Below the pieces are notes generated by a model. It did not search any database, had not been told where the DNA came from, and saw only the letters and a list, made by a program, of their open reading frames with translations. A stretch of DNA of 64,000 nucleotides from an uncultured Pseudomonadales bacterium (GTDB lineage Bacteria > Pseudomonadota > Gammaproteobacteria > Pseudomonadales > Porticoccaceae): assembly GCA_943788895.1 (NCBI GenBank), contig CALSRZ010000001.1, positions 248,001 to 312,000 of the forward strand. The letters are read 5' to 3'. Below, piece after piece: positions 7,696-21,895 of the stretch; position 1 is the first letter of the stretch, and every line of letters starts with the position of its first letter. The position numbers and the translations under genes are program-made.

Positions 7696-9172
7696 TTACT
7701 GTTTAAAGATTTTTATCCAATCCCCAGGGCGCGGTTCGCCACTGGGATAATGGCCATTGATTATACGCAGATCATCTATCTCTGTAGAGTTCAGGTTAAA
7801 GGCCTTGCCGAGGGCATCAAAGGTGGTTGCGCCGGTGGCTTTTACATAGTGAATGGTTTTGGGTTTCTGACCGGCAATCTCGCGCCGCGAAATCGGCCTA
7901 AAGCTTTTAATTGATTCGACAAACAGTTTGTCGGCCTCGGCAAACTGTTCCTGCTTATCCACCTGACCGTTAAATACAAAGGCATTGAGTTTGTAATAGA
8001 TCACCGCAATACGCTGGTCGGGCTGGTCTTCTGCGCCGGCCAAGATACCGCTAAAACCTTTTAGCCCAGCAGGAGAAATTGTCTGACCCTGATCAAGTTT
8101 TGACACCTTGAGGAAGTTGTAGAGATACTCCTCGGGGCTCTGTGACGTTCGTGCAATCGGCGTTAGGGAGAGCTGGGCATCATTGCTCTCTGGCACGCCC
8201 ACCGAGCTGTGTTTGCTGACATCGTTGGTCTGTGTCCAGCCCTCGGGATAGTCAAAGCGCACGCGCAGCTGCATATTGTTGTAGCGCTCGGGTTTCTTCT
8301 CTTTGGCGAGAAAGTTTTCTCCCCAGATAAGCCCTTCGGTAAGTTTGCGGTACTCGGCTGCACCGTTGCCACGGGTCTCGGTGGATTGCACGCTCTGAGC
8401 TTTGCTAACCACGGTGCGCAGTCGTGAATCATTGCGCGGGTGGCTGGCAAATATGCCATGGTAGGTCTGCTTGCTGGCACCCTTGGCTTTGGCGCGGTCT
8501 TTCTGCAGCATTTCGTAGTCTTTCATAATCGATAGCATGCTGATCATCTCGCTAGGCTTGTAACCCAGCTTGGCCATATATTCGGCACCGGCTTCATCGG
8601 CTTCCAATTCGTTGCGGCGGCCGTGACCGCGAATAATCGAGTTGGCGTAGGCCATGCCGGCTTCGTAGACTTCACCGCTGCCGGAGAGCACGGCGGCAAT
8701 AGTCGATAAGACCTGCGCGCCGATTGCCTTGCCCTCCTGGCCGGTGACATGTTTTTTGGTGATATGGGCAACTTCGTGGGCGAGCACTGAGACCAGCTGG
8801 GCTTCATTGCTAACATAGTTGAGCAGGCCGCGATTGACGTAGACATAGTTGCCGCGAGTGGCGAAAGCATTGAGGTCTTCTGAGTCGAGCAGGGTGAAGG
8901 TAAATTTCTTCTCCGGCCATCTCCGACTGGGCGACGATTTCATTGCCAAGTCTTTTGATATAGGCATCCAGTTCTGGGTCATCGTAGATCGGGGTGGCCT
9001 GCAGCACCTCTTTATAGATATCTTCGCCGGTGGTTTTTGCCGCCAGTTGTACTGGCATTAGCAGGGCTAGACAGATGGTAGTCCACAGAGTCGGGCGAAA
9101 ATTCGACAACAAAAATATCATCCAGCTTACTCTCAATTTTCCTCCCAATTTTGCTCTCACTTTTCCTTTCAT
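7696..9172 (-). CDS. M48 family metalloprotease with C-terminal LysM-like segment (frameshift near 8930)
   Basis: HEVAHITKKH zinc motif; C-terminus TTFDALGKAFNLNSTEIDDLRIINGHYPSGEPRPGDWIKIF; N-terminal part in ORF 8810..9172, rest in 7696..8982. Confidence 0.85.
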
Positions 9173-9825
9173 TTTTTCACGCTAAAGAATGTCTTCAGCT
9201 GTTTGCCAAGGCTGCTGCAGGCATCTTTTTTAACCGGTGTTAACAGCGGAATAGGGGCCACGGCGCCAATCAGGTAGGAGGTGCCTGCAGAGTCTACCCG
9301 CAGTCGGCCCTTTTCGCTAAAGTCATTGAGGTCCCAGACGATAGCTTCATAGACAGAGCTTTTTTCCCACTGTGCATAGCCAAAACAGCCACCGCCACCG
9401 GGGCCTATGGCGCAGCTAATCGAGCCGCCCTGATCATGGGTTTGGGTTGAGCCATCGAGCCATACCAGATAGCGAACTCTCTGACTGTCGACCTGATTTT
9501 TAATATCCGGATCCTGCATCAGGCGGGTAAGGCGTTTAAGACCTTTGGGCGCTGTTCGCGGTTCAAACCAGGGGTATATAGCGTCGATAAACTGTTGCTC
9601 GGGCATCACGCTAATATCCGCACCTTTCATTTTGCCGGCAACACAGCTGATAAATTCCCGGTCAGTATCGTAGTGTCCCGCGTCTCTGCGTCCGAGGATA
9701 ACCACAGATTCATCGCTGTTAAGCTCCATAACGCTGTTGTTTGGGCGGTATTCGTCAATAGTGGTGGTGGCACCGCAGCCGGTGAGAAGAAATACTGCTG
9801 TAACAAGGACAAAGATTTTATTCAT
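9169..9825 (-). CDS. Hypothetical lipoprotein
   Basis: Lipobox LLTGCGA; 4-bp overlaps with both neighbours. Confidence 0.75.
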   Translation of the reverse strand: MNKIFVLVTAVFLLTGCGATTTIDEYRPNNSVMELNSDESVVILGRRDAGHYDTDREFISCVAGKMKGADISVMPEQQFIDAIYPWFEPRTAPKGLKRLTRLMQDPDIKNQVDSQRVRYLVWLDGSTQTHDQGGSISCAIGPGGGGCFGYAQWEKSSVYEAIVWDLNDFSEKGRLRVDSAGTSYLIGAVAPIPLLTPVKKDACSSLGKQLKTFFSVKK

Positions 9826-10439
9826 TGTTCAGCCCCCAGCTTTTGCTCGCGCAGCATCCAGTTGTAGACGCTTGGAATACGGTAGAAGTCGAGAAGTAAT
9901 TTGGCACCGGCATCGCGCAGGGCGATAACCGCGGCTTCTTCAATGGCATTGGTTTTCGACAGCATAAATGAGTCCGGCGTCTTGCCGTAGGCGGGCATAA
10001 ACCAACTGTCGATCTGGTCGCCGTCGCTATTTTCAATATCCAGGCTGTACTTGATCCACACTTCATAGACATTCAGGTAGGTGTCAGAGGGTGTCGAGAC
10101 CTGAACTTCCTGAACAGAGGGGGTGATCACCAGGGCGTTGTCCAAACTCACCTCCTCTCTGGAGGAGATAATTTCGATATTGCTAAACAGCCCTTTAAAG
10201 GCATTGCCAAGCATGGTGGTCTGGGCGGAGCCAATGTCGATACTGGTTTTTTTATTGGGTGCCGCGACATAGCCCCTAAATTGCTCGTCGAAAATAATTG
10301 AGGCGCTGACCGCTTTAGGCTTTGTGACAACCGTTGGAAACTGTCGCTCGGCTACCTGCACCTGTGCCGATGAGCTGCAGCCGGTAATGACTAGCAGGGC
10401 AATAAGGCTGGCAATAAGATGTATGTTAGTTATCTGCAT
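9822..10439 (-). CDS. Hypothetical lipoprotein
   Basis: MQITNIHLIASLIALLVITGCSSS lipobox; likely start at 10439 rather than 10490. Confidence 0.75.
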   Translation of the reverse strand: MQITNIHLIASLIALLVITGCSSSAQVQVAERQFPTVVTKPKAVSASIIFDEQFRGYVAAPNKKTSIDIGSAQTTMLGNAFKGLFSNIEIISSREEVSLDNALVITPSVQEVQVSTPSDTYLNVYEVWIKYSLDIENSDGDQIDSWFMPAYGKTPDSFMLSKTNAIEEAAVIALRDAGAKLLLDFYRIPSVYNWMLREQKLGAEQ

Positions 10440-10452
10440 AATTTTGATTCCT

Positions 10453-11442
10453 TTAATTAAGGCTGTTAAGGCCAATAAAGGTTCCCCCATTGTTATAGCT
10501 TAGCTCACGCATCAGAGCGGCGAATCGTATTGCCGAGGCGCTGGGTGATCCGCCCCGTGGGAAATGCACAGGAAAGCCAATCGCATGAATACGCACCAGC
10601 CGGTCGGCGCCGCGGTGGGCCTGGTTAAGATTGTCGATGGCTTTGACTATATTGCGAATCGAGCGTCCCTGAAAGTCGTCGCCCAAGGTGTAGATACTGA
10701 TCTTGCGATCGGCTTTGTAGAAGGTTTGAATCGCTGCATTAATCCCTTCAACCGGACTGGAGTTGCTAAATGGCGCCCAGGTATTTAAGGTTTTAATGAT
10801 GTTTTTGCGCATCTCCGGGCTATCCGGTATCCAGCGGCCACGGTAGGCGGAGAACATATACTGGCCCATATCATTGAGCACCTGCAGGCCTTTTACATCG
10901 GGATAGATGTCGAGAATATTGATCATCTCTTTTTTGACTTTTTCCCAGGCGGCAACCTGCATACTGCCGGAGGTGTCGATGACAAAAATAATATAGTCGC
11001 TGTCGACGGGAATACCGCCGATCAGTTTATTCTGCTGTTTAAATTCCGGGCCGAGCAGGCGCTCCATCTCCTCACTGAGAATCTGCATTACCAGTTGCAG
11101 CTGTTCTTTTTCGCGGGCCTGTGACTGGGATATCTGCACCGACTGTTTTTCAACACTGGCCAATTTGGCCTTAAGACGTGCCACTCGCTCGGTCAATTCG
11201 GAGAGCTGTTCTTTGCGGGATTTAAGCTGTTCATTGAGCACCACGGATTCACCGCGCACGTCAAATAGCTGCTCCTGATATTCTTTGACTGTCGCGCGCA
11301 GTTTGTTTTCTGCCTCTTCAAGGGCTGCGGGATCGCCGACTCGGGCTATAACTAATAGCAAGACAATAGCGCCAAAGCCACAGCTGATAACATCCAGAAA
11401 TGAGATGCTGGCTTCCTGAGATGCACGACGTTGACGTTTCAT
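10453..11442 (-). CDS. Membrane-anchored VWA-domain protein with ExbD/MotB-like N-terminal TM helix (paralog 2)
   Basis: SISFLDVISCGFGAIVLLLVI TM segment, coiled coil, VWA MIDAS FVIDTSGSM. Confidence 0.85.
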   Translation of the reverse strand: MKRQRRASQEASISFLDVISCGFGAIVLLLVIARVGDPAALEEAENKLRATVKEYQEQLFDVRGESVVLNEQLKSRKEQLSELTERVARLKAKLASVEKQSVQISQSQAREKEQLQLVMQILSEEMERLLGPEFKQQNKLIGGIPVDSDYIIFVIDTSGSMQVAAWEKVKKEMINILDIYPDVKGLQVLNDMGQYMFSAYRGRWIPDSPEMRKNIIKTLNTWAPFSNSSPVEGINAAIQTFYKADRKISIYTLGDDFQGRSIRNIVKAIDNLNQAHRGADRLVRIHAIGFPVHFPRGGSPSASAIRFAALMRELSYNNGGTFIGLNSLN

Positions 11443-12497
11443 GGCCAGTCTCGCGAGGGGGCAATAAAGGCTCCCTGAGTATTGAGTGCCAGCTGCCAGA
11501 ACAGTGCGGCGGCTTCTGGGTCACCCTCCATGGGAAAGAGGATGGTGTTGACTGGAATACCTCGTGGCAGGCTGTTGATGGCAGCGGCGAAGAAGTCGCG
11601 GCGCTGGCGGCCGCTAACCATATATTTTTTCGGTGGCGCGGCACCCTGGGTTGGCAGGCCATCGGTGAGTATAAATAGGTTGTCCGGTTTTTTTTCAAAG
11701 TCGTTAATCGAAGCGATGGCATTGATCAGGCTGGTGCCATTACCTGGTGAATAGTTGCGTAGACCCTCTACGGCTTTTTCCAATGCCAGGGAGTCGGCGG
11801 CATCCAGCCATTCGCCTTCGCTGCCGATAATTGCCGGCTGTGCACCGGTGTTAAAGATATAGAGTTGGAAGCGGCTACTTGGAGGCAGTTGAGCCAAAAG
11901 CCATTCCGTGGTGCGCATGGTCCAGATCCATTTTGGTGACTGCTTCTTCTGGCTGTCGTCCATATTGCGCCGGCGCACGGCGTTGACCACGGTGTCGGCG
12001 AGCATACTCGCGGAACCATCGACTAGAATCATCACTCGCTCGCCGCCGAGTTTGAGACCGGTCAGGTACTGGCGGTTACCGTCGCCAAGAAATTCGCGGA
12101 CCTTGTCGCCAAATTCCACCTCTTCCATCTGCGCGGTCTCTTTTTCCAGTTCCTCGACTTGGCGGCGCAGTTTGGCAATATCATCTTTGGGGTCGGCCTG
12201 AATACTTTTTTCCTGTTCCTGCAGATCGGTTATTACTCGATCAGAGGCACCTTGCGCAGTCACCAACTGCAGCTGCAGCTCCTTAAGGCTGTTAAGTAAT
12301 TCGACTTTTTCCCGCTCGGCCTGACTTATATCCTCTTGCAGCAGATCCACTTCCGAGGCCAGCCTTGGGTCTGGCAATTCGATCTCGGTGGCGTTGTGGC
12401 GGAGGATTAAAAACAGCAGGGTTACCGCGCCAAAGCCGCAGGCCATAATGTCCAGAAACGAGAGACTAAAGGCGATATTGCGACGCTTCTTAGCCAT
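11439..12497 (-). CDS. Membrane-anchored VWA-domain protein with ExbD/MotB-like N-terminal TM helix (paralog 1)
   Basis: SLSFLDIMACGFGAVTLLFLI TM segment, coiled coil, VWA MIDAS LVDGSASM, NGTSL, LTDGLP. Confidence 0.85.
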   Translation of the reverse strand: MAKKRRNIAFSLSFLDIMACGFGAVTLLFLILRHNATEIELPDPRLASEVDLLQEDISQAEREKVELLNSLKELQLQLVTAQGASDRVITDLQEQEKSIQADPKDDIAKLRRQVEELEKETAQMEEVEFGDKVREFLGDGNRQYLTGLKLGGERVMILVDGSASMLADTVVNAVRRRNMDDSQKKQSPKWIWTMRTTEWLLAQLPPSSRFQLYIFNTGAQPAIIGSEGEWLDAADSLALEKAVEGLRNYSPGNGTSLINAIASINDFEKKPDNLFILTDGLPTQGAAPPKKYMVSGRQRRDFFAAAINSLPRGIPVNTILFPMEGDPEAAALFWQLALNTQGAFIAPSRDWP

Positions 12498-13797
12498 TGC
12501 AGACCTCGATCAGCAGCAGCTGATAGTCGCCGATAAATATTTTTCCGCCGGGCTGGGCAGTCTCGGGCAATTCTATGCTGCTGGTGCTGTCGCGATGGAT
12601 AATGTTGAGGCCCTGCTTATTTATCGATATAACCAGTGCGGCGCTCTTATCCACCAGCGGGGTAATATTGAGTCGCTTGCCATCCATGGCGATACTTAGC
12701 GGCTCGCTAAGTAGCCAGGCTCTACCCTGATAGAGCAGATGAGTTGCCGGGGTAGGGGGTGCGGTATCTGTACTGCGCCTGCCACTGTTAACTGGAAGCT
12801 CTTGAATCGAGGTGATTCGATGCAGATTATCGCTCTTTTCAATAAGTGACTGATGATAATTGAGGCAGTTATCAACGCCCTGGGTCTCGTTGAGTTCTCG
12901 GGCAGCACTAAACCCTGAATGCAGCGCTGAGATCAGTTTTGTGTTGTGGGAAAAGGTGATATCTGCGGCGGCGGTTTTTTTGATCAGCCGGTTTAAACTC
13001 TCCAGGCGACTCGCTAAAAGCAGTTCAATATCTTTTTTGCGCAATAGTATTTGCAGATCACCACGGGGTGAGGCGATGCTTAGATCGCATTCTGAAAGCC
13101 CGCCAATGCGCCTGCTGAGTCCGGGTAGCTGATCATAGATTGCCTGTTCACCCTCCGAGGTATGCAGTGGATCATAACGGTGATTCTTGATCGTCAGGTC
13201 GCGGATATAGCTGGCCAGGGCATTGTAGACGTGGCTGGCACCTATATCGGGAATAACCTGATGGGCTTTGATACGCAGATTGCTGCGCTCAAAACTGACT
13301 TGGCTGACAACCATCTGGTGCATCTGCAGGTCCACATACAGGGTCTGCTTTTCTGCGCCGTTGATCTCTTTAATCGAGTCTTCGAGATACAGACAGTCAG
13401 CGAGACTGCTGTCGACAATCGCCACTATGCTGGTTTTCAGTGCACCGGTCAGGCCCAGCAGCAGGGACAGCTGTTGATCGTCAAAGGTGCTTGGAACACT
13501 GAGAATTAACTGCTCTGGAGAACCGGCTTTGGTCAGCAGATTCTGCAGCTGTGCAAAGGCAATATCGGCGTGGTGGCGAGCCCAGTGCTGATCGCCGGGC
13601 AGCTGCGCCTGATTGAGTTGTCGCCAGTAATCGCGGTAGATATTTTGTGGCTGTAACCAGGCCTGCTGTTGCGCTGCCAGGCCGGTGATAATGCCCTGTT
13701 CGGTATGCAGTGCATATCCGGGTTCGCAGAACACCTCGCCGTCCTGAGTTTTAATCAGTAGCGCCTGGTCATTGAGTTCGAGAACAGCAGTGCTCAT
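12490..13797 (-). CDS. Degenerate actin/Hsp70-like ATPase-fold protein (putative)
   Basis: Weak Hsp70-like features (LILSVPSTFDDQQLSLLLGL; TLYVDLQMHQMVVSQV); 8-bp overlap with the VWA gene. Confidence 0.5.
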   Translation of the reverse strand: MSTAVLELNDQALLIKTQDGEVFCEPGYALHTEQGIITGLAAQQQAWLQPQNIYRDYWRQLNQAQLPGDQHWARHHADIAFAQLQNLLTKAGSPEQLILSVPSTFDDQQLSLLLGLTGALKTSIVAIVDSSLADCLYLEDSIKEINGAEKQTLYVDLQMHQMVVSQVSFERSNLRIKAHQVIPDIGASHVYNALASYIRDLTIKNHRYDPLHTSEGEQAIYDQLPGLSRRIGGLSECDLSIASPRGDLQILLRKKDIELLLASRLESLNRLIKKTAAADITFSHNTKLISALHSGFSAARELNETQGVDNCLNYHQSLIEKSDNLHRITSIQELPVNSGRRSTDTAPPTPATHLLYQGRAWLLSEPLSIAMDGKRLNITPLVDKSAALVISINKQGLNIIHRDSTSSIELPETAQPGGKIFIGDYQLLLIEVCNG

Positions 13798-13800
13798 GGT

Positions 13801-14595
13801 CTATTTCGCTTTTAAAAAACGCAGCAGGTTGTTTTCACAGTAGGCGTGGGAGTCGAGCACCAGGCGCTCCTGAATCAGCTGTAGCTGGTGCATAAAAAAC
13901 ATCACCAGCATGCTGATCAGCAGGGCGATAAATGTTGAGTTAAAGGCTACGCCGAGGCTGCTGGTAACGCCGGCAATATTGCCCTGCATGGCTTCGTGAG
14001 CCTGTCCCAGTGCGGCGCCTATACCGCGCACGGTGCCGATAAAGCCGATGGAGGGAATCGCCCAGGTGATATAGCGAACCATGGAGAGTTCTGAATCGAG
14101 TCGATCATTTTCATTGCTGCACACGGTATTCACTGCATCGGTTGCCGATTGAACGCTGTCGGTGACCTGAAAGCGGGTGAGGGCGATTTGCAGGGCGCGG
14201 GGCAAGAGCATTGGACGCTGATCATCGGGCAGTGATTGCAGTGGCCTGGCCAGTTGGCTGGCATCTTCTGGCAATACCCTTGACCCTTCGCTGATGGAGA
14301 TTAAGGGGCGGTTAAACATCTTTTGTTCGCGGAGGGCGCTGCGGGTTTTGTAACCCATAATGGCTAGGGCCCAGAACATCAGAATAAAACAGGCTTCCTG
14401 TTCGAAGTCTTTGATCACAATAAAGAATGAGCGCGGCACTTCATAGTCTTCGCCAGCGGCGGCCATTTCGGCGTGATGACGAATGGTGCTCTCGGCATTG
14501 GGGCGCACCACGGTGACAAATATGGCGTGGACAATAATAACCGCGAGTAGCAGGGCGATTAACTGGAAGAACATCTCATTGGTATGACTTTTCAT
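13801..14595 (-). CDS. MotA/TolQ/ExbB proton channel family protein
   Basis: Family signature PSIGFIGTVRGIGAALGQAHEA...GVTSSLGVAFNSTFIALLISM, multiple TM helices. Confidence 0.9.
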   Translation of the reverse strand: MKSHTNEMFFQLIALLLAVIIVHAIFVTVVRPNAESTIRHHAEMAAAGEDYEVPRSFFIVIKDFEQEACFILMFWALAIMGYKTRSALREQKMFNRPLISISEGSRVLPEDASQLARPLQSLPDDQRPMLLPRALQIALTRFQVTDSVQSATDAVNTVCSNENDRLDSELSMVRYITWAIPSIGFIGTVRGIGAALGQAHEAMQGNIAGVTSSLGVAFNSTFIALLISMLVMFFMHQLQLIQERLVLDSHAYCENNLLRFLKAK

Positions 14596-14625: not shown

Positions 14626-14880
14626 TTAAATATCTGATGGAAGAGGAACCGGGAAGTCTTCGGAGATCTCTTCGCTAGGTTTAAAATCGTCGGCAGTTTT
14701 TGACTCTTCTGCAGTTTGGTCTGTCTGCCCATCGTTTTTAGGCTGCGGCTGTTGGGTCTGTTCCTCTGACTCTGCTGTGTCAGCCGACCACAGTGGTGTT
14801 GAAAAAGCAGTGGCCGCCAGAATTGTCAGTGCCAGCCAAAAGCTGCGGATTCTGCTTTGATGCTTGCTGTAACTGTTCAT
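14626..14880 (-). CDS. Small secreted acidic protein
   Basis: Signal peptide then low-complexity E/Q/D-rich region; 4-bp overlap with the upstream gene. Confidence 0.55.
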   Translation of the reverse strand: MNSYSKHQSRIRSFWLALTILAATAFSTPLWSADTAESEEQTQQPQPKNDGQTDQTAEESKTADDFKPSEEISEDFPVPLPSDI

Positions 14881-16949
14881 AGATCACTTCCAGGTTTATC
14901 GACATAACGGGCAATTCTAAAGCCCAGATCAATGCGCCCGTCGTTTCCGGAGTCGCGATAACTAAGGCGCAGCTCGGTACGTGAGGCGAGAGCCCAGCTG
15001 GCACCGCGAATCACATGTTTGTTGCCCTGTTGTGGGCCGCGGGGATCGACTTCTGGCTCACCGCGCCGGGGGCGGATATCAAAATAGTCATTGACCCATT
15101 CAGCGACATTGCCGCTCATCTCATAGAGCCCTTTGCTGTTGGCTTTAAAGCTACCAACCACGGCTGACACTGGATACTGATCATTGTAGTTGGGCAGGGT
15201 AAAGCTGATAAGAGCTCTGGCGCTTTGATCGGCATAGTTGTCGGTGACTTCCAGGGGCGGATAGAGATCATTGCTCCAGGGGAAGATATGACTTTTTGAC
15301 TGCGCGTCGATTTTTGCCGCCCAGGCCCATTCCGCCTCGGTGGGAAGTCGGTAGCCATGGGCATCCCAGTTAAAGCCGACAATGCGACTCTCTTCAATAA
15401 TATAGAACGGCGGCAGGCCCTCTTTGCGGCTCAACCAGTTGCAGAACAGTGCGGCATCTTGCCAGCTGACTCGGGCAACCGGCTGGTCGTTCATATCCAG
15501 AGTCTGTCCTTTGATTGCCGTCGAGCTGTGTTGATCTTTCCAGCGCCGATACTGGGCGTTGGTGGTTTCGTGGGTGGCCAGATAAAAGGGGCGTTTAAGG
15601 GCGACCGAACGCTCTGCTTCATTGGCGCGTCTGCCGGGCTGTCGCCGCGGTGCGCCGAGCATAAACTGCTGATCGGGGCGGAACAGTTTTAACTGGATAC
15701 CCACTGAGCTGTTTGCCGTCGGAGGGCGTGATGCCCAGTAGGCCTGCTCTAGGGTCAGTAATTTAACGGTCAGTGCCTGCTGGTGCCCGGGCCTTGGAGT
15801 AACTGTCATCGACTTGGTCTGGTAGCCGGATTTCTCAACGCTGATGCTGTGTGGCTTGGCATTTAGGGAGAGAGTCTGGCTGCCGCTGCCCTGGCTTTTA
15901 CCATCTACTTTAATCGTTGCATCTGCAGGGCTTACTCTTAGCTGAACTGTGCCTATATTGGGGGTCAGATCAACATTTAAATCGGCCTGTTGCTCGGGTT
16001 TTACGGCAATGGATCTGGTAGCTTTCAGGTAGCCTTCGAGAAACAGTTCGACTTTATGTTTTGTAAACGGTGCCACATCGACTAACAGGGGAGTCACACC
16101 TGAAAACTGCTTATCGATGGTAATACTTGCACCCTGGGGTGAACTGTTAATGGCCAGCTGGCCATCGGCAACAATCATTTCAATCAGTGGGTGCTGTGCT
16201 TTAGTGCCGGCTTTGACGGTGATCTGCTGTTGCAGGGTTTTATAGCCAGCGGCTCTAAGGGTTATCTGACTGCCGGTTTCCAGTACTTCGGCGGTGATCG
16301 GTGTCTGGCCAATCAGCCGATCGTCGATATACAGTTCGGCCCCTGCGGGAACTGTGGTGAAATCCATATGCCCCCACGCCGGTTGCAATGTGATCTCTAC
16401 AGCCTGAGTTTTACCGAGACCTTCGATTTGCACTTCCTGCTGCAGGGGGAAGTAGCGGTATTTTCTAAAGTCGAGTTTGTGGGCACCGCGACTTATTTGC
16501 TCGAGAGTGCCGGGGACGGTGCCGGCCAGTTGGTCGTCAATGTATACCTCTATATCACTGAGGCTGGCATTGATCAATAGATTGCCCGGCAGTGGTTGTA
16601 GGCTGATATCGATCTGCTGGGTGGCCTGATCGCTGACCTCAATGGTTTTGCTCAGTGGGTAGTAGCCAGGTGCTTCGGCACTGAGCTGATGCTCGCCGCG
16701 CAGCAAGAGATAGTTATCGCCAATATGGAAGGTCAGACCGCTGATATCGACCACCGCTGTGGCGGGGTCGAGGCGCAGGATCAGTGCCCGCGCGGCAAAT
16801 AAAAACACCAGAATCAGCACTGCTACCAGTGTAAACGCGGTGGTGAAAAGCAATGCGCCAGAGGGTCTGGTGCTGCGCTTCTGCGCTTTGCTTTGCAGCG
16901 GCGTAAAGTCGGTTGCAGTCAGTGGCGGGGTATTATTTTTGTCGACCAT
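14877..16949 (-). CDS. PEGA-repeat protein with C-terminal FGE-sulfatase/SUMF1-like domain, single TM anchor
   Basis: Several PEGA-like repeats (VPAGAELYIDDRLIGQTP; SPQGASITIDKQFSGVTP); SUMF-type RLPTEAEWAWAAK, GLYEMSGNVAEWVNDYF, VIRGASW, LGFRIAR. Confidence 0.85.
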   Translation of the reverse strand: MVDKNNTPPLTATDFTPLQSKAQKRSTRPSGALLFTTAFTLVAVLILVFLFAARALILRLDPATAVVDISGLTFHIGDNYLLLRGEHQLSAEAPGYYPLSKTIEVSDQATQQIDISLQPLPGNLLINASLSDIEVYIDDQLAGTVPGTLEQISRGAHKLDFRKYRYFPLQQEVQIEGLGKTQAVEITLQPAWGHMDFTTVPAGAELYIDDRLIGQTPITAEVLETGSQITLRAAGYKTLQQQITVKAGTKAQHPLIEMIVADGQLAINSSPQGASITIDKQFSGVTPLLVDVAPFTKHKVELFLEGYLKATRSIAVKPEQQADLNVDLTPNIGTVQLRVSPADATIKVDGKSQGSGSQTLSLNAKPHSISVEKSGYQTKSMTVTPRPGHQQALTVKLLTLEQAYWASRPPTANSSVGIQLKLFRPDQQFMLGAPRRQPGRRANEAERSVALKRPFYLATHETTNAQYRRWKDQHSSTAIKGQTLDMNDQPVARVSWQDAALFCNWLSRKEGLPPFYIIEESRIVGFNWDAHGYRLPTEAEWAWAAKIDAQSKSHIFPWSNDLYPPLEVTDNYADQSARALISFTLPNYNDQYPVSAVVGSFKANSKGLYEMSGNVAEWVNDYFDIRPRRGEPEVDPRGPQQGNKHVIRGASWALASRTELRLSYRDSGNDGRIDLGFRIARYVDKPGSDL

Positions 16950-17061: not shown

Positions 17062-18570
17062 TTAGATAGCCTCATTGCAGCTAATGGTAATCGGTGAGTC
17101 CAGGCCCTTGTCGGTCAGGGTAAATTCGATACGTACATCGCGATAACCGGCCCTGCTGCCGGCGACAATATAGCGGCCGGGTTTAAGGGATACCGAGGTT
17201 CTCTCAAAAGTACCCAGTCTGGCGACTCTAAACAGGGTGACATTGGTATTGCTGTCGGAGGACAGGGTCACTTCTACTGGTGTTTGCGAGGCTTTTATAA
17301 TCTGTTTAAGGGTTTTAATCTGGTTGCTTAACAGCGGGCCGGGATTGGCAATTCCTGAGGCATCGCGCATGGTCTTTTGCGCTTTACGGAGTTGGCTGCT
17401 GGACGCCAGTGCCAGTGGGTCTTCGATAATCCCGCGAATTCGCCTGTCGAGGTCGGCGCGGACATTGACCGGAATCTGTTTGACTTTAACGTCGGTCAGG
17501 GTTGCATCGGTCAGCAGGAGTTTTTCATAGATAGATTTTGCCTGCTGCCACTGCTCCTGTTTGGCAAATTGGTCAGCGCGGGCCATATTATTTGTCACCC
17601 AGAGTTGTGAGCGACGTGTCTCCAGCTGTGCCAGCGCCTGTTTGACGGCGGGGTGGTCGATATAGACTTTGCCAGCTCGATTAAAGGCGGCTGTTGCCTG
17701 TTCGAAGCTGTTGTTGTCCAGTTCTCTAAAACCCTGACTCATATGCCCCCGAAAACGCTGTTCGGTTATTTTTTGCTCGGTTTTAGCCAGCGCGGCGGTG
17801 GCTTTTTTGTGCTTTGGATCCAGAGTTACTGCGCTGCTAAATGCCTTTTTGGCGGCGCTGAGCTGGCTGAGGGCGCTGTGTTTTTCACCCTGCTGCAGGG
17901 CTTCTATAAGCCGCGGTAAATTGGCGACTCGCTGGCTGAGTTGCTGTACTTTTTTATCGCTGGGTGCCATGGCGCTGGCCAGTTCAATATTGCTGGTGGC
18001 GGTGCTGAGAATGCTCTCTTCGATCGCATTACTAGCCTCGTCTATAGCCTTGGCGAGAGTCATTTTCCCCGTAGTTTCGAGATTACTGAGGCCGTCGAGG
18101 GCGCTCTGGTAGCTGGCCACGGATTTGGCATACTCTCCGTATTGATACTGCTGGTCACCGCGCTCTATCTGCTCCATTGCCTGCTTAAACTCGAACTCTC
18201 CCCAGAGTTCGACGCGCTTTTCCTGCAGGCGATCGCGGCGGGCAATAATCTCCGCCAAAAGAGTCTGCGCATCCTGGCGATACTTGGTTTTTTGCGCAGC
18301 TGTTGAGGGGCTGACCACGGTGGCGGATGCACTGGGGCTGGTGTTTTCGCTCTCTGATGAATAGTTGATCCAGGGTTCGGTAACGCTGTTTGGCAGTATA
18401 AAAATCACCGCGCTGGCCAGTAGCAGGAGCACAGTGATAACTATTTTCTGTACGCCGCTCTGATGGACACCACTTAGACGCGCACCACTGATCACTGGTT
18501 TTTGCCGGCCGTTGCTATGCAGGTTAAAAGCAGAGTCTACACTGGCCTGTTTGGCGTCTCTGGTATCCAT
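17062..18570 (-). CDS. TPR-repeat protein with single TM helix and PEGA-like C-terminus
   Basis: TM segment IVITVLLLLASAVIFIL, TPR-like helices, C-terminal LKPGRYIVAGSRAGYRDV. Confidence 0.65.
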   Translation of the reverse strand: MDTRDAKQASVDSAFNLHSNGRQKPVISGARLSGVHQSGVQKIVITVLLLLASAVIFILPNSVTEPWINYSSESENTSPSASATVVSPSTAAQKTKYRQDAQTLLAEIIARRDRLQEKRVELWGEFEFKQAMEQIERGDQQYQYGEYAKSVASYQSALDGLSNLETTGKMTLAKAIDEASNAIEESILSTATSNIELASAMAPSDKKVQQLSQRVANLPRLIEALQQGEKHSALSQLSAAKKAFSSAVTLDPKHKKATAALAKTEQKITEQRFRGHMSQGFRELDNNSFEQATAAFNRAGKVYIDHPAVKQALAQLETRRSQLWVTNNMARADQFAKQEQWQQAKSIYEKLLLTDATLTDVKVKQIPVNVRADLDRRIRGIIEDPLALASSSQLRKAQKTMRDASGIANPGPLLSNQIKTLKQIIKASQTPVEVTLSSDSNTNVTLFRVARLGTFERTSVSLKPGRYIVAGSRAGYRDVRIEFTLTDKGLDSPITISCNEAI

Positions 18571-18573
18571 GAC

Positions 18574-19782
18574 TTAGGGTGTACTGCGTTCCTGTTGGTA
18601 AATCTTGCCCAACAGTTCCTGCCACTGTTGATACTGAGCCTGAACCGTGCCGGTCAGGGTGACAGTGCGGTCTTCCAGTTCGATAACCTGAGGGGCAATT
18701 TCTGCCTCGAGAGAGGAGCCCATCTCTGCCACTGCCTCGCTGTATTCCGAGGCTTTCTGTTTTTTGTCGAGGCCGGATTTGATTACAAACCCACCCACTG
18801 CGGCAGTCGCGGTGCCAGCGTCGTCAGCGATACTGGTGCGCGCTTGGGAGCGGCCGTAAATTCCTGCCAGAATGGCGCCAATACCGGCGATTACCTGTCG
18901 GTTGCCCTGGGCATTAAGCTGTCGCGCCTTGACCACTGAGTCGTAGGAGGAGCGGCGGAAATCCTGGTAGGCGAGGTGCATCTGCTGGGAGAATCCGTCG
19001 TAATAATCCTGCATGGTGTCGACATAGAGATAGTCGCGTTCGCGGATTTTGCGCACACGTATCAGAATGCTGTCATTTTCCGCTGGCAGTCGCGAGATAC
19101 TCAACAGTCCTTTGCGATCTTCCTCGACATAGTTATCAAAGGCTTCGGGTGAGAATTTTCTGGCAAAACGCAGCTCGGAAATCGTGCGCAGATCCTCTGC
19201 CCGCTGGTCGCTGATCTTTTCCCGGTAGGCAAGCAGATCGTTGGCGATGCGGATAAACAGATTTTGGAATGGGTCGCCGAGGCTTTTTAGGCGGCGGTCG
19301 TAGGCGTACTTGCCGGTGGTCTGTTTATAGCGTTTTTTAAACCATTTTTTGCCGCTGCTATCGACCACTGCAATCTCCAGATCCATGGTCTCGCCGTCGG
19401 ACTGGTGAATGGTACCGGTGATATACAGGTCCATTATCACATCGCTGTTGGGGGTGACTCGAATAGCCCCCCAGGCACCGCTTTTTTCCAATACTTTGCC
19501 GAGCTGATTGGAGAAGTAGATCGCCTCTGCATAGCGGACTTCAGGAAAGACGGTGTCGTTTTCATCGGTGAGATAGAGGCCGTCGTTGAGGGTTGGAATG
19601 CCGACATCCAAAAGTGTTTCTATGGGGAATGATCGCGACGGGGTGTTTAGGGTCAGGGTCGTCGATGAGGTTACTTTGTCGACAGCTGCCTGAGCTGTTG
19701 TCACAGATAATGTGCACAGTACAAAGCCGCATATTAGCGCGATGGTTTTACTGGGCATTGCGAAGAGGTTGCTGATTATCAT
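18574..19782 (-). CDS. Hypothetical secreted protein
   Basis: Signal peptide SKTIALICGFVLCTLSVTTAQA; 3 bp from the neighbouring gene. Confidence 0.65.
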   Translation of the reverse strand: MIISNLFAMPSKTIALICGFVLCTLSVTTAQAAVDKVTSSTTLTLNTPSRSFPIETLLDVGIPTLNDGLYLTDENDTVFPEVRYAEAIYFSNQLGKVLEKSGAWGAIRVTPNSDVIMDLYITGTIHQSDGETMDLEIAVVDSSGKKWFKKRYKQTTGKYAYDRRLKSLGDPFQNLFIRIANDLLAYREKISDQRAEDLRTISELRFARKFSPEAFDNYVEEDRKGLLSISRLPAENDSILIRVRKIRERDYLYVDTMQDYYDGFSQQMHLAYQDFRRSSYDSVVKARQLNAQGNRQVIAGIGAILAGIYGRSQARTSIADDAGTATAAVGGFVIKSGLDKKQKASEYSEAVAEMGSSLEAEIAPQVIELEDRTVTLTGTVQAQYQQWQELLGKIYQQERSTP

Positions 19783-19799: not shown

Positions 19800-20636
19800 C
19801 TAACCTTGATTCTTTATACGGCGGTATTCATCCCAGAGTTTTTCCCTGAGTATCGGATCTCGCTCTTTGCTGGCTGCGTCACGAATTTGCCGCAAGACAA
19901 TATCGTCGCCCTGACCATCGTCTATATCATCGGGAATTGGGATAATTTCGTTGCCGGCCTGTTCTTGGCCGGAGCTGCTGTTAGAAGCCTGTCCGCTTGG
20001 CGCTTCGGCACCACTGCCGTCTGCCCCGGGAGGTGCGCCCTCAGCGGCGCGCTGTTCTATTGAGGCGTTGCCCTCAGCACCGCCGTCACCGCCAGCTTCT
20101 TCAAATAATGGTTCGTCGCTGTCGATACCACCGCCGGTTCCGCTGGGGCTGAGTATATCGATGCTGCTATCGCCATTGCGGTTGCCTTCAGATAAAACAG
20201 TCTCGTCAAAATCTTCCAGGGATTCGTCGAGGGCTTCATCGAGTCCTTCTATTGAATCTCCGCTGCCGCCACTCTCTTCTACATTATCGCCTTGAGGGCT
20301 GCCTTGATTGCCTTCACTGCCAGCATCACCGCCACTGGGTGATGCTGTGCTGCCCGGATCTCCTCCCGGACTGGGCGCTCCCCCTCCTGGACTTGGTACT
20401 CCCCCTCCTGGATTTGGCACTCCCCCTCCTGGATTTGGCACTCCCCCTCCTGGATTTGGCACTCCCCCTCCTGTGCTTGGTACACCTCCACCTGAGCTTG
20501 AGCCATTGTTGGTTGGCGATGGCATTGAACAGGCGCCGAGGCTTAAAATCGCAGCGATAAGCAAGCTGGCAGCCACTGGCTTGGTAGAGCCAGTTATCTG
20601 CTGTTTACTGATTTTTTTATAAGTGATTATTTTCAT
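19800..20636 (-). CDS. Lipoprotein with Pro/Gly-rich tandem repeats
   Basis: Lipobox LSLGACS; (GGGVPNP)n repeat. Confidence 0.65.
   Translation of the reverse strand: MKIITYKKISKQQITGSTKPVAASLLIAAILSLGACSMPSPTNNGSSSGGGVPSTGGGVPNPGGGVPNPGGGVPNPGGGVPSPGGGAPSPGGDPGSTASPSGGDAGSEGNQGSPQGDNVEESGGSGDSIEGLDEALDESLEDFDETVLSEGNRNGDSSIDILSPSGTGGGIDSDEPLFEEAGGDGGAEGNASIEQRAAEGAPPGADGSGAEAPSGQASNSSSGQEQAGNEIIPIPDDIDDGQGDDIVLRQIRDAASKERDPILREKLWDEYRRIKNQG
20376..20493. repeat. In-frame 21-bp minisatellite (about 5-6 partly degenerate units)
   Basis: Repeated ACTCCCCCTCCTGGATTTGGC unit encoding GGGVPNP on the minus strand. Confidence 0.9.
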
Positions 20637-20644
20637 CGCTGTTT

Positions 20645-21895
20645 TTATGATTCCTGTGCCTGTTTGCTCGAGTAGGAAAAAACAATACTGCTCTCGGTTG
20701 TTTCCCCATCCACAAGCCTGGGCCTAAAGCGTTTGCTGCGAATATCTTTAAGAATTGCTCGAACCTCATTCTTGCTGATATTTTCTGGTGGGTTGAGTAT
20801 TTCCATTTTGCCTGGAACACCAGCTTTGGAAACCTCTAACGATACCTGCAGATCCGCTTTCGGCAATTTTTTGCCAGTTTCCACAGCGGTAAATTCTATG
20901 ATGCTTGGTTGGCCAAACAGGGTCTCGGTCAGTTGCTGTGACTCTGCATTTGCCTGCAGTGATTCGTAGGCGAGTTTGTAAGCTTTGCTGGCAGACATAC
21001 GCTGACCAAATACCAGATACCAGTCGCCGAGCTCTGCAATAGCCTGGGCTTTCTGCGAGTCGCTGATATTGTCTTGCTCTTCCAGTGATTCAACGACTTT
21101 TTGCAGAGCCGCTTTGCCGCGACGATAGTGCTGTTGCGAGGTGCTGTTGGGACTCTTTGCGGTTGAGGATCCGGAGTTGATGGTCAGGCCGGATTCCGAG
21201 GGCTCGCCATGCTGTTTAATATGGTTGGCGATAAAATAGTGCAGATGGCTGATTTTGCGGTATCTCTGAGCTACATCCGGGTCGTCTAGCGGTACGCTTT
21301 TTTTAAGGATACTGGTCATACGGTTGCTGAGGCGCTCAGAGATAACTAGATTCTGGTAGCCGCCATTCTGGCTTCTGTCGTTGTAGGTATCCATATACCA
21401 GTCGAGAAGTTCATCGAGTACTGGCAGCATTCGCGGATCATTTTCTCCGTAGGCATGGGAGTTAATTTCATAGAGATTTTCCAAGGCATTCTGGGATTCA
21501 TCCCAGTTGCCAAGAAAGCTTTCGGCCTCGGCAATGGAGAGCAGGTAGGGAGTCTGGGAGAGGCTGTTAAGGCCGTAGTTAACGCGCTCAATCTGCATTC
21601 CGCGCTGATAGGCCTGTCGCGCTCGCTCGTATTCACGCTTTGAGAAGTGAGATTGCCCGAGGCCAAAGTAGAGGTCAGAAAGTTCTGCAGAATAGGCGCT
21701 GCGCTCGGCCTCTGCGGTTTCAATAGCATCCAGATAATCGCTAATGGGGTCACTTTCTGTGACCTCTGTGGTGATTGTTTGTGCGACTGTCCCAGAGCTT
21801 AAGGCTAGAGATATAAGCATACACATGAGCATATACATAAACATCTCGATGCTCTTTGCTGGGCTATAGTTGATCGCTCTGCTACTGGGTTTCAT
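20645..21895 (-). CDS. TPR protein with TonB-like C-terminal domain
   Basis: Signal peptide; TPR-like repeats; C-terminus DLQVSLEVSKAGVPGKMEIL...AILKDIRSKRFRPRLVDGE resembles a TonB C-terminal domain. Confidence 0.65.
   Translation of the reverse strand: MKPSSRAINYSPAKSIEMFMYMLMCMLISLALSSGTVAQTITTEVTESDPISDYLDAIETAEAERSAYSAELSDLYFGLGQSHFSKREYERARQAYQRGMQIERVNYGLNSLSQTPYLLSIAEAESFLGNWDESQNALENLYEINSHAYGENDPRMLPVLDELLDWYMDTYNDRSQNGGYQNLVISERLSNRMTSILKKSVPLDDPDVAQRYRKISHLHYFIANHIKQHGEPSESGLTINSGSSTAKSPNSTSQQHYRRGKAALQKVVESLEEQDNISDSQKAQAIAELGDWYLVFGQRMSASKAYKLAYESLQANAESQQLTETLFGQPSIIEFTAVETGKKLPKADLQVSLEVSKAGVPGKMEILNPPENISKNEVRAILKDIRSKRFRPRLVDGETTESSIVFSYSSKQAQES

Follow-up and report, generated by a model that had tools for sequence, protein, structure and literature searches.

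Paired VWA-domain proteins as a probable B unit of a MotA-like motor in an envelope gene cluster of marine gammaproteobacteria

The 64,000 nucleotides of DNA from an uncultured Porticoccaceae bacterium that were analysed here (the window) encode, on the minus strand, a MotA-like protein, MOT, and two VWA-domain proteins, VWA1 and VWA2, which quite probably constitute a proton-driven motor of 5:2 composition, where one VWA1 and one VWA2 would serve as the two-helix B unit. A sequence-only reading had proposed such a B unit, and we see it as a supported functional hypothesis rather than a proven one, because the VWA genes are linked to a MotA-like gene in every informative locus while the cluster carries no ExbD or MotB, the aspartate of the membrane helix is invariant, the topology is appropriate, MOT retains both threonines of its better known relatives, and the pairing of the VWA proteins is obligatory.

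Both VWA open reading frames, their starts and two stretches of 21 residues at the membrane were found where the earlier reading had placed them. VWA1 (11439..12497, minus strand, 352 aa) consists of a basic N-terminus, a transpore-type transmembrane helix with Asp16, a coiled coil and a VWA domain; VWA2 (10453..11442, minus strand, 329 aa) has the same architecture, and its start codon overlaps the VWA1 stop. The membrane stretches, SLSFLDIMACGFGAVTLLFLI in VWA1 (12405..12467) and SISFLDVISCGFGAIVLLLVI in VWA2 (11347..11409), belong to the most conserved window of each protein: the best 23-residue window has a mean majority fraction of 0.95 in VWA1 and 0.90 in VWA2, against 0.68 and 0.73 in the respective VWA parts and about 0.56-0.60 in the coiled coil. 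In both proteins the basic tail (on average 3.6 Lys/Arg in the 12 residues ahead of FLD in VWA1 and 3.0 in VWA2) is followed by a single membrane helix bearing FLD, and the FLD aspartate, proposed here to bind protons, is kept in 113/113 VWA1 and 118/118 VWA2 sequences, that is, in all 231 aligned N-termini (Asp16 codon, 12450..12452; VWA2 Asp17 codon, 11392..11394; both minus strand). Thus the basic N-terminus and the aspartate at the helix entrance, as they had been noticed in the two sequences, hold for the family. The shared signature, originally read as SFLD-x3-CGFGA, stands only in its first half: CGFGA is common and variable, and relatives that belong to a different class within the phylum have SSAFAA or ASGLGA instead. 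As this part varies, the invariant core is FLD, and the signature should be read as a basic tail, S-x-[S/A]-F-L-D and a small/hydrophobic helix.

An AlphaFold2 model of VWA1 built from 33 sequences (mean pLDDT 78, mostly above 90 in the VWA domain) places Asp16 in the first turn of a helix spanning residues 13-37, which has low pLDDT in the monomer, followed by helices 44-98 and 103-127 (coiled-coil region, residues 44-127, 12117..12368) and by a VWA fold at residues 154-345 (11463..12038). The Pfam matches of VWA1, to VWA_3 and VWA_2, are below cut-off, and the VWA fold was confirmed by a PDB fold search with the model. The MIDAS motifs, DGSAS in VWA1 (residues 160-164, 12006..12020) and DTSGS in VWA2 (residues 156-160, 10963..10977), are intact, in agreement with the earlier reading; within the Porticoccaceae-centred sets no sequence departs from their D, S and S (70/70 and 67/67), and a further Thr/Ser and Asp are kept as well. 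BatB is among the PDB matches of VWA1, MIDAS proteins are often partners of ATPases, and the same operon includes a gene for an Hsp70-type protein, so one could imagine a BatA/BatB-like assembly or chaperone module that acts near an ion channel and takes no part in it, its Asp-bearing helix being a plain anchor. We regard this as highly improbable, since no AAA/MoxR match was found among the scanned operon proteins and a plain anchor leaves it unexplained that conservation in each protein is highest in the transmembrane segment, which contains an invariant charged residue.

According to BLASTP (E=4e-15, 25% identity) and hhalign (probability 99.3) VWA1 and VWA2 are, on the sequence level, true and divergent paralogs along their full length. 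The aspartate is kept in both, neither being obviously passive, which would also suit two separate homodimeric motors that share one A subunit. VWA1 and VWA2, however, are found together in all 85 loci and in two classes, and heterologous pairs are also seen in a published survey (PMC12204202), so that separate homodimers appear improbable, and one heterodimer is the form that we would expect.

The linkage is strict. MOT, on the same strand and upstream, and VWA2 accompany VWA1 in all 85 loci long enough to judge, and the three genes stay together in 20/20 distant 20-kb loci; the Hsp70-like gene (ACT) is present in 74 of the 85 and missing in 11. The source assembly is 1.95 Mb in size, with SAR92-clade Porticoccaceae as the nearest relatives. 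The VWA pair occurs in 44/196 sampled genomes of the order and also in one other group of class rank within the phylum, and about a tenth of the class has VWA matches (32/321 sampled genomes with a match of any kind, including a few weak partial ones). Five matches (G332, G254, G331, G433, G619) were rejected, as they are confined to coiled-coil or incomplete VWA stretches; two of them, G332 and G619, were inspected and have no FLD helix. A search for VWA1 in plasmids gave no match.

MOT (13801..14595, minus strand, 264 aa) is a MotA/TolQ/ExbB-like A subunit (PF01618, E=6.8e-14, 52.2 bits at a cut-off of 22.9). Its HMMER alignment to TolQ is gap-free yet weak in score (12.5 bits) and equates Thr188 (14032..14034) with TolQ Thr145 and Thr221 (13933..13935) with TolQ Thr178, both threonines being invariant in the MOT family. 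For TolQR, the literature (PMC12905483) calls TolQ Thr145 and Thr178 essential, along with TolR Asp23. A profile search of the source genome revealed five PF01618 MotA_ExbB loci and four ExbD loci; all four ExbD are on other contigs, none on the contig of the window (C1), and no MotB_plug match was found in this genome, so MOT has no conventional B partner nearby. The four ExbD genes might allow another arrangement, where the pore is occupied by an ExbD-type protein encoded elsewhere and the VWA proteins, docked outside the motor, transmit force in the manner of TolA/TonB; a distinct vWA family, which is encoded beside motor genes and has TolA/TonB-like topology and an SHLS motif, has indeed been described (PMC12204202). 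Nevertheless, three of the four ExbD loci (C5:369474, C2:206322, C6:16606) directly adjoin another MotA_ExbB gene, the cluster itself has no ExbD, the Asp at the helix entrance is invariant, and alignment inspection shows that the S-x3-H-x6-L-x3-S pattern is absent from both VWA N-termini, VWA2 having no His there. Such transducers are in our view very improbable, a little more so than separate homodimers.

In the motor that we favour, with the VWA pair as B unit, a MOT pentamer would form the A ring in the inner membrane, and a single VWA1 together with a single VWA2 would put two helices inside its pore. Asp16 and Asp17 would alternate in proton binding against the ring of Thr188 and Thr221, which may drive a relative rotation; the coiled coils would pass the motion on to the periplasmic side, and there the MIDAS-type VWA domains of both proteins might grip a partner, most likely a co-encoded envelope protein such as the PEGA-SUMF1, TPR, 402-aa or lipoprotein product.

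The similarity of the helix to ExbD/MotB, which the earlier reading had expected from profile comparison, did not come out directly. Neither VWA1 nor VWA2 has an ExbD/MotB Pfam match, a PDB sequence search with the VWA N-terminus gave none, and in hhalign the helix scores 12-13 against ExbD or MotB profiles, while 13 decoy transmembrane segments reach up to 14.3 and the positive control, ExbD against MotB, has 19.7. The VWA aspartate is aligned on that of MotB, at a score equal to decoys. Direct homology by HMM is likewise not significant, a weak negative given that the narrow ExbD HMM also misses MotB. As judged from these comparisons, formal homology of the VWA helix to ExbD/MotB is unproven.

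Related partners of other MotA-like proteins bridge a part of this gap. When 13,840 ORFs were searched with a VWA1 helix HMM, ranks 1, 3, 4, 5 and 7 went to proteins whose genes adjoin other MotA-like genes or lie only a few genes away from them; these neighbours were found by tracking MotA-like genes or the helix itself and are not a random sample. Rank 2 was an unrelated-looking ORF. Three contexts are represented: in a genome of the same class, MotA-like, FHA and PP2C genes followed by a protein with a SALD helix, coiled coil and VWA; on a Rhizobium leguminosarum plasmid, Ser/Thr kinase-like plus FHA, PP2C and MotA-like genes followed by a protein with an SVLD helix, coiled coil and a C-terminus without VWA match; and on cyanobacterial plasmids, a MotA-like gene and after it a pair of small proteins, one with an FPFLS and one with an SFLDI helix, of which one lacks the FLD Asp. 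The helices of these neighbours align with the VWA1 helix at hhalign probabilities of 97%, 87% (SFLDI) and 73% (FPFLS) and scores of 45, 26 and 23, decoys being at 13.7 or lower. In Anabaena, the first of the two small proteins resembles ExbD weakly (E=0.0036, which does not reach the curated cut-off). Built as it is on two-sequence alignments, this chain of similarities falls short of proving homology; the proteins concerned belong to sister systems, in which a helix of this kind is combined with other C-terminal domains.

Some neighbourhoods of these genes deserve a mention in their own right. The MotA-like gene and the FPFLS/SFLDI transmembrane proteins have a type III-B CRISPR module and a viperin gene in their vicinity on the Anabaena cylindrica plasmid pANACY.03 (L286:5785-8364), and an N-6 DNA methylase and a helicase on a Microcystis plasmid (L285:5860-8460); they are possibly an uncharacterised defence-island motor. 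The cyanobacterial B2 pair had no match in 312 Gammaproteobacteria or in viral contigs. MotA-like genes are clustered with PP2C and FHA genes on the Rhizobium plasmid (L262:1265-7738), where a Ser/Thr kinase-like gene is present too, and at L254:7516-10816, and this grouping suggests that related motors are under phospho-signalling control.

VWA pairs as motor components were already predicted. The TPH-vWA family (Mol Biol Evol 2025, msaf138, June 2025; PMC12204202, Fig. 4c,d), which came to light through Idiomarina vWA homologs, comprises heterologous vWA pairs that adjoin a tolQ-like gene without tolR/exbD and are wide in Proteobacteria; an AlphaFold 3 model puts the transpore helix inside a TolQ-like pentamer, with the proton-binding Asp within the Thr ring. 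It is a computer prediction only, with no function assigned. The earlier reading would have been refuted by missing profile similarity together with a missing predicted pore interface, and in view of this model that combination as a whole does not apply. Another survey of stators (PMC12505986) does not mention VWA, and no experiments on the VWA-motor family were found in the literature searched. The window genes resemble TPH-vWA in their co-encoding with a MotA-like gene (85/85), in being a heterologous pair (25% identical), in the absence of tolR/exbD/motB from the cluster, in the helix Asp (231/231) and in the lack of the SHLS docking motif; likened by description rather than by Idiomarina sequences, the two show no difference at the level described. 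Because it fits every feature that could be tested, we file the window pair as a further member of the predicted TPH-vWA kind. While the motor reading of vWA pairs is thus published as a prediction (PMC12204202), our analysis adds the strict linkage, the conservation of Asp and Thr, the gene content of the conserved envelope operon, and sister systems whose helices carry C-terminal domains of other kinds.

Compared with TolQR/ExbBD (PF01618 and PF02472), MOT keeps both essential threonines and the VWA proteins have B-type topology, with the Asp at the transmembrane entrance after a cytoplasmic N-terminus, but they carry a coiled coil and VWA in place of the ExbD periplasmic fold, with no significant profile match. 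The A/B logic is also that of MotAB (PF13677 plug and OmpA), where the Asp alignment mentioned above belongs, although the VWA proteins possess a VWA domain and neither a plug segment nor an OmpA-like peptidoglycan-binding domain. Zorya ZorAB shares the MotA-type A subunit, and ZorA-type models match MOT very weakly; on the other side, the ZorB-like helices compared do not match the VWA helices and the operon has no Zorya genes. A ZorB identity of VWA1 or VWA2 was rejected, since no ZorB/PADLOC model matches either.

The motor genes belong to a cluster of 12, all on the minus strand, whose order is kept in about 80 relatives; the distant loci retain the 402-aa protein, TPR, PEGA-SUMF1, MOT, VWA1 and VWA2. 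It begins with a TPR-like exported protein (20645..21895), a conserved Gly/Ser/Pro-rich putative lipoprotein with a lipobox (19800..20636), a conserved 402-aa exported protein of the cluster core, of no known family by profile search (18574..19782), and a membrane-anchored TPR-like protein (17062..18570; weak TPR matches, conserved in the cluster). Then come an inner-membrane protein with five PEGA repeats and a SUMF1/FGE-like part (14877..16949; PEGA E=1.6e-51, FGE-sulfatase E=5.1e-37), MOT, ACT, VWA1 and VWA2, and from MOT through VWA2 neighbouring genes either abut or share a few bases. Two conserved putative lipoproteins follow, LipA (9822..10490; lipobox LVITGC, likely start at an internal Met, about 10442) and LipB (9169..9825; lipobox FLLTGC), and at the end an M48 BepA-like protease (7696..9172; NF052400, E=1.4e-22), which occupies two frames in the source assembly and a single ORF in most relatives. 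Both the M48 gene (8810..8982) and trpA (about 6750) look frame-broken in this assembly, which is likely due to assembly errors. Promoter and terminator scans returned no more signals than shuffled sequences. The PEGA-SUMF1, Hsp70-like, lipoprotein and M48 genes of such a cluster are not described in the main text of PMC12204202.

ACT (12490..13797), between MOT and VWA1, is an Hsp70/DnaK-type actin-fold protein, with the fold of the nucleotide-binding domain, by its AlphaFold2 model (pLDDT 90.3; top PDB matches DnaK/Hsc70, E~1e-17), with no Pfam match. By inspection, its first strands lack the Hsp70 DLGTT loop, and since this loop is absent, ATP use is doubtful and ACT is possibly a pseudo-ATPase. 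We know of no role for an Hsp70-type protein beside an ion-driven motor. In the SUMF1 part of the PEGA protein only one Cys is seen, and hence it is probably not a formylglycine-generating enzyme. A SUMF1-fold envelope protein adjoining an ion-driven motor recalls GldK and GldLM of the type IX secretion/gliding motor; however, the window protein is an inner-membrane PEGA protein and not a lipoprotein, its match to NCBIfam GldK has 86 bits (E=2.5e-24) against a cut-off of 350, and there is no GldM match. The relation is a resemblance only.

Taking these genes together, we may tentatively suggest, as an extended reading that is rather unlikely to be right in full, that the whole cluster specifies an uncharacterised machine spanning the envelope of marine gammaproteobacteria. 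Its B unit would be an asymmetric heterodimer that turns or pulls a periplasmic load of PEGA-SUMF1 and TPR proteins bound through the MIDAS, as a functional counterpart of GldK/GldLM, and a cytoplasmic Hsp70-type protein would exert control. The FLD helices would then be a further B lineage beside ExbD and MotB, reused with other periplasmic domains: VWA here, a non-VWA one in Rhizobium and an ExbD-like one on cyanobacterial plasmids. If the motor reading of the VWA pair is right, the moving B subunit of a 5:2 motor can itself carry an adhesion-type, metal-dependent binding domain and deliver force directly, with no TolA/TonB arm. The two paralogs also offer a natural test of whether the pore aspartates are equivalent, which is hard to address in homodimeric MotB, ExbD and TolR.
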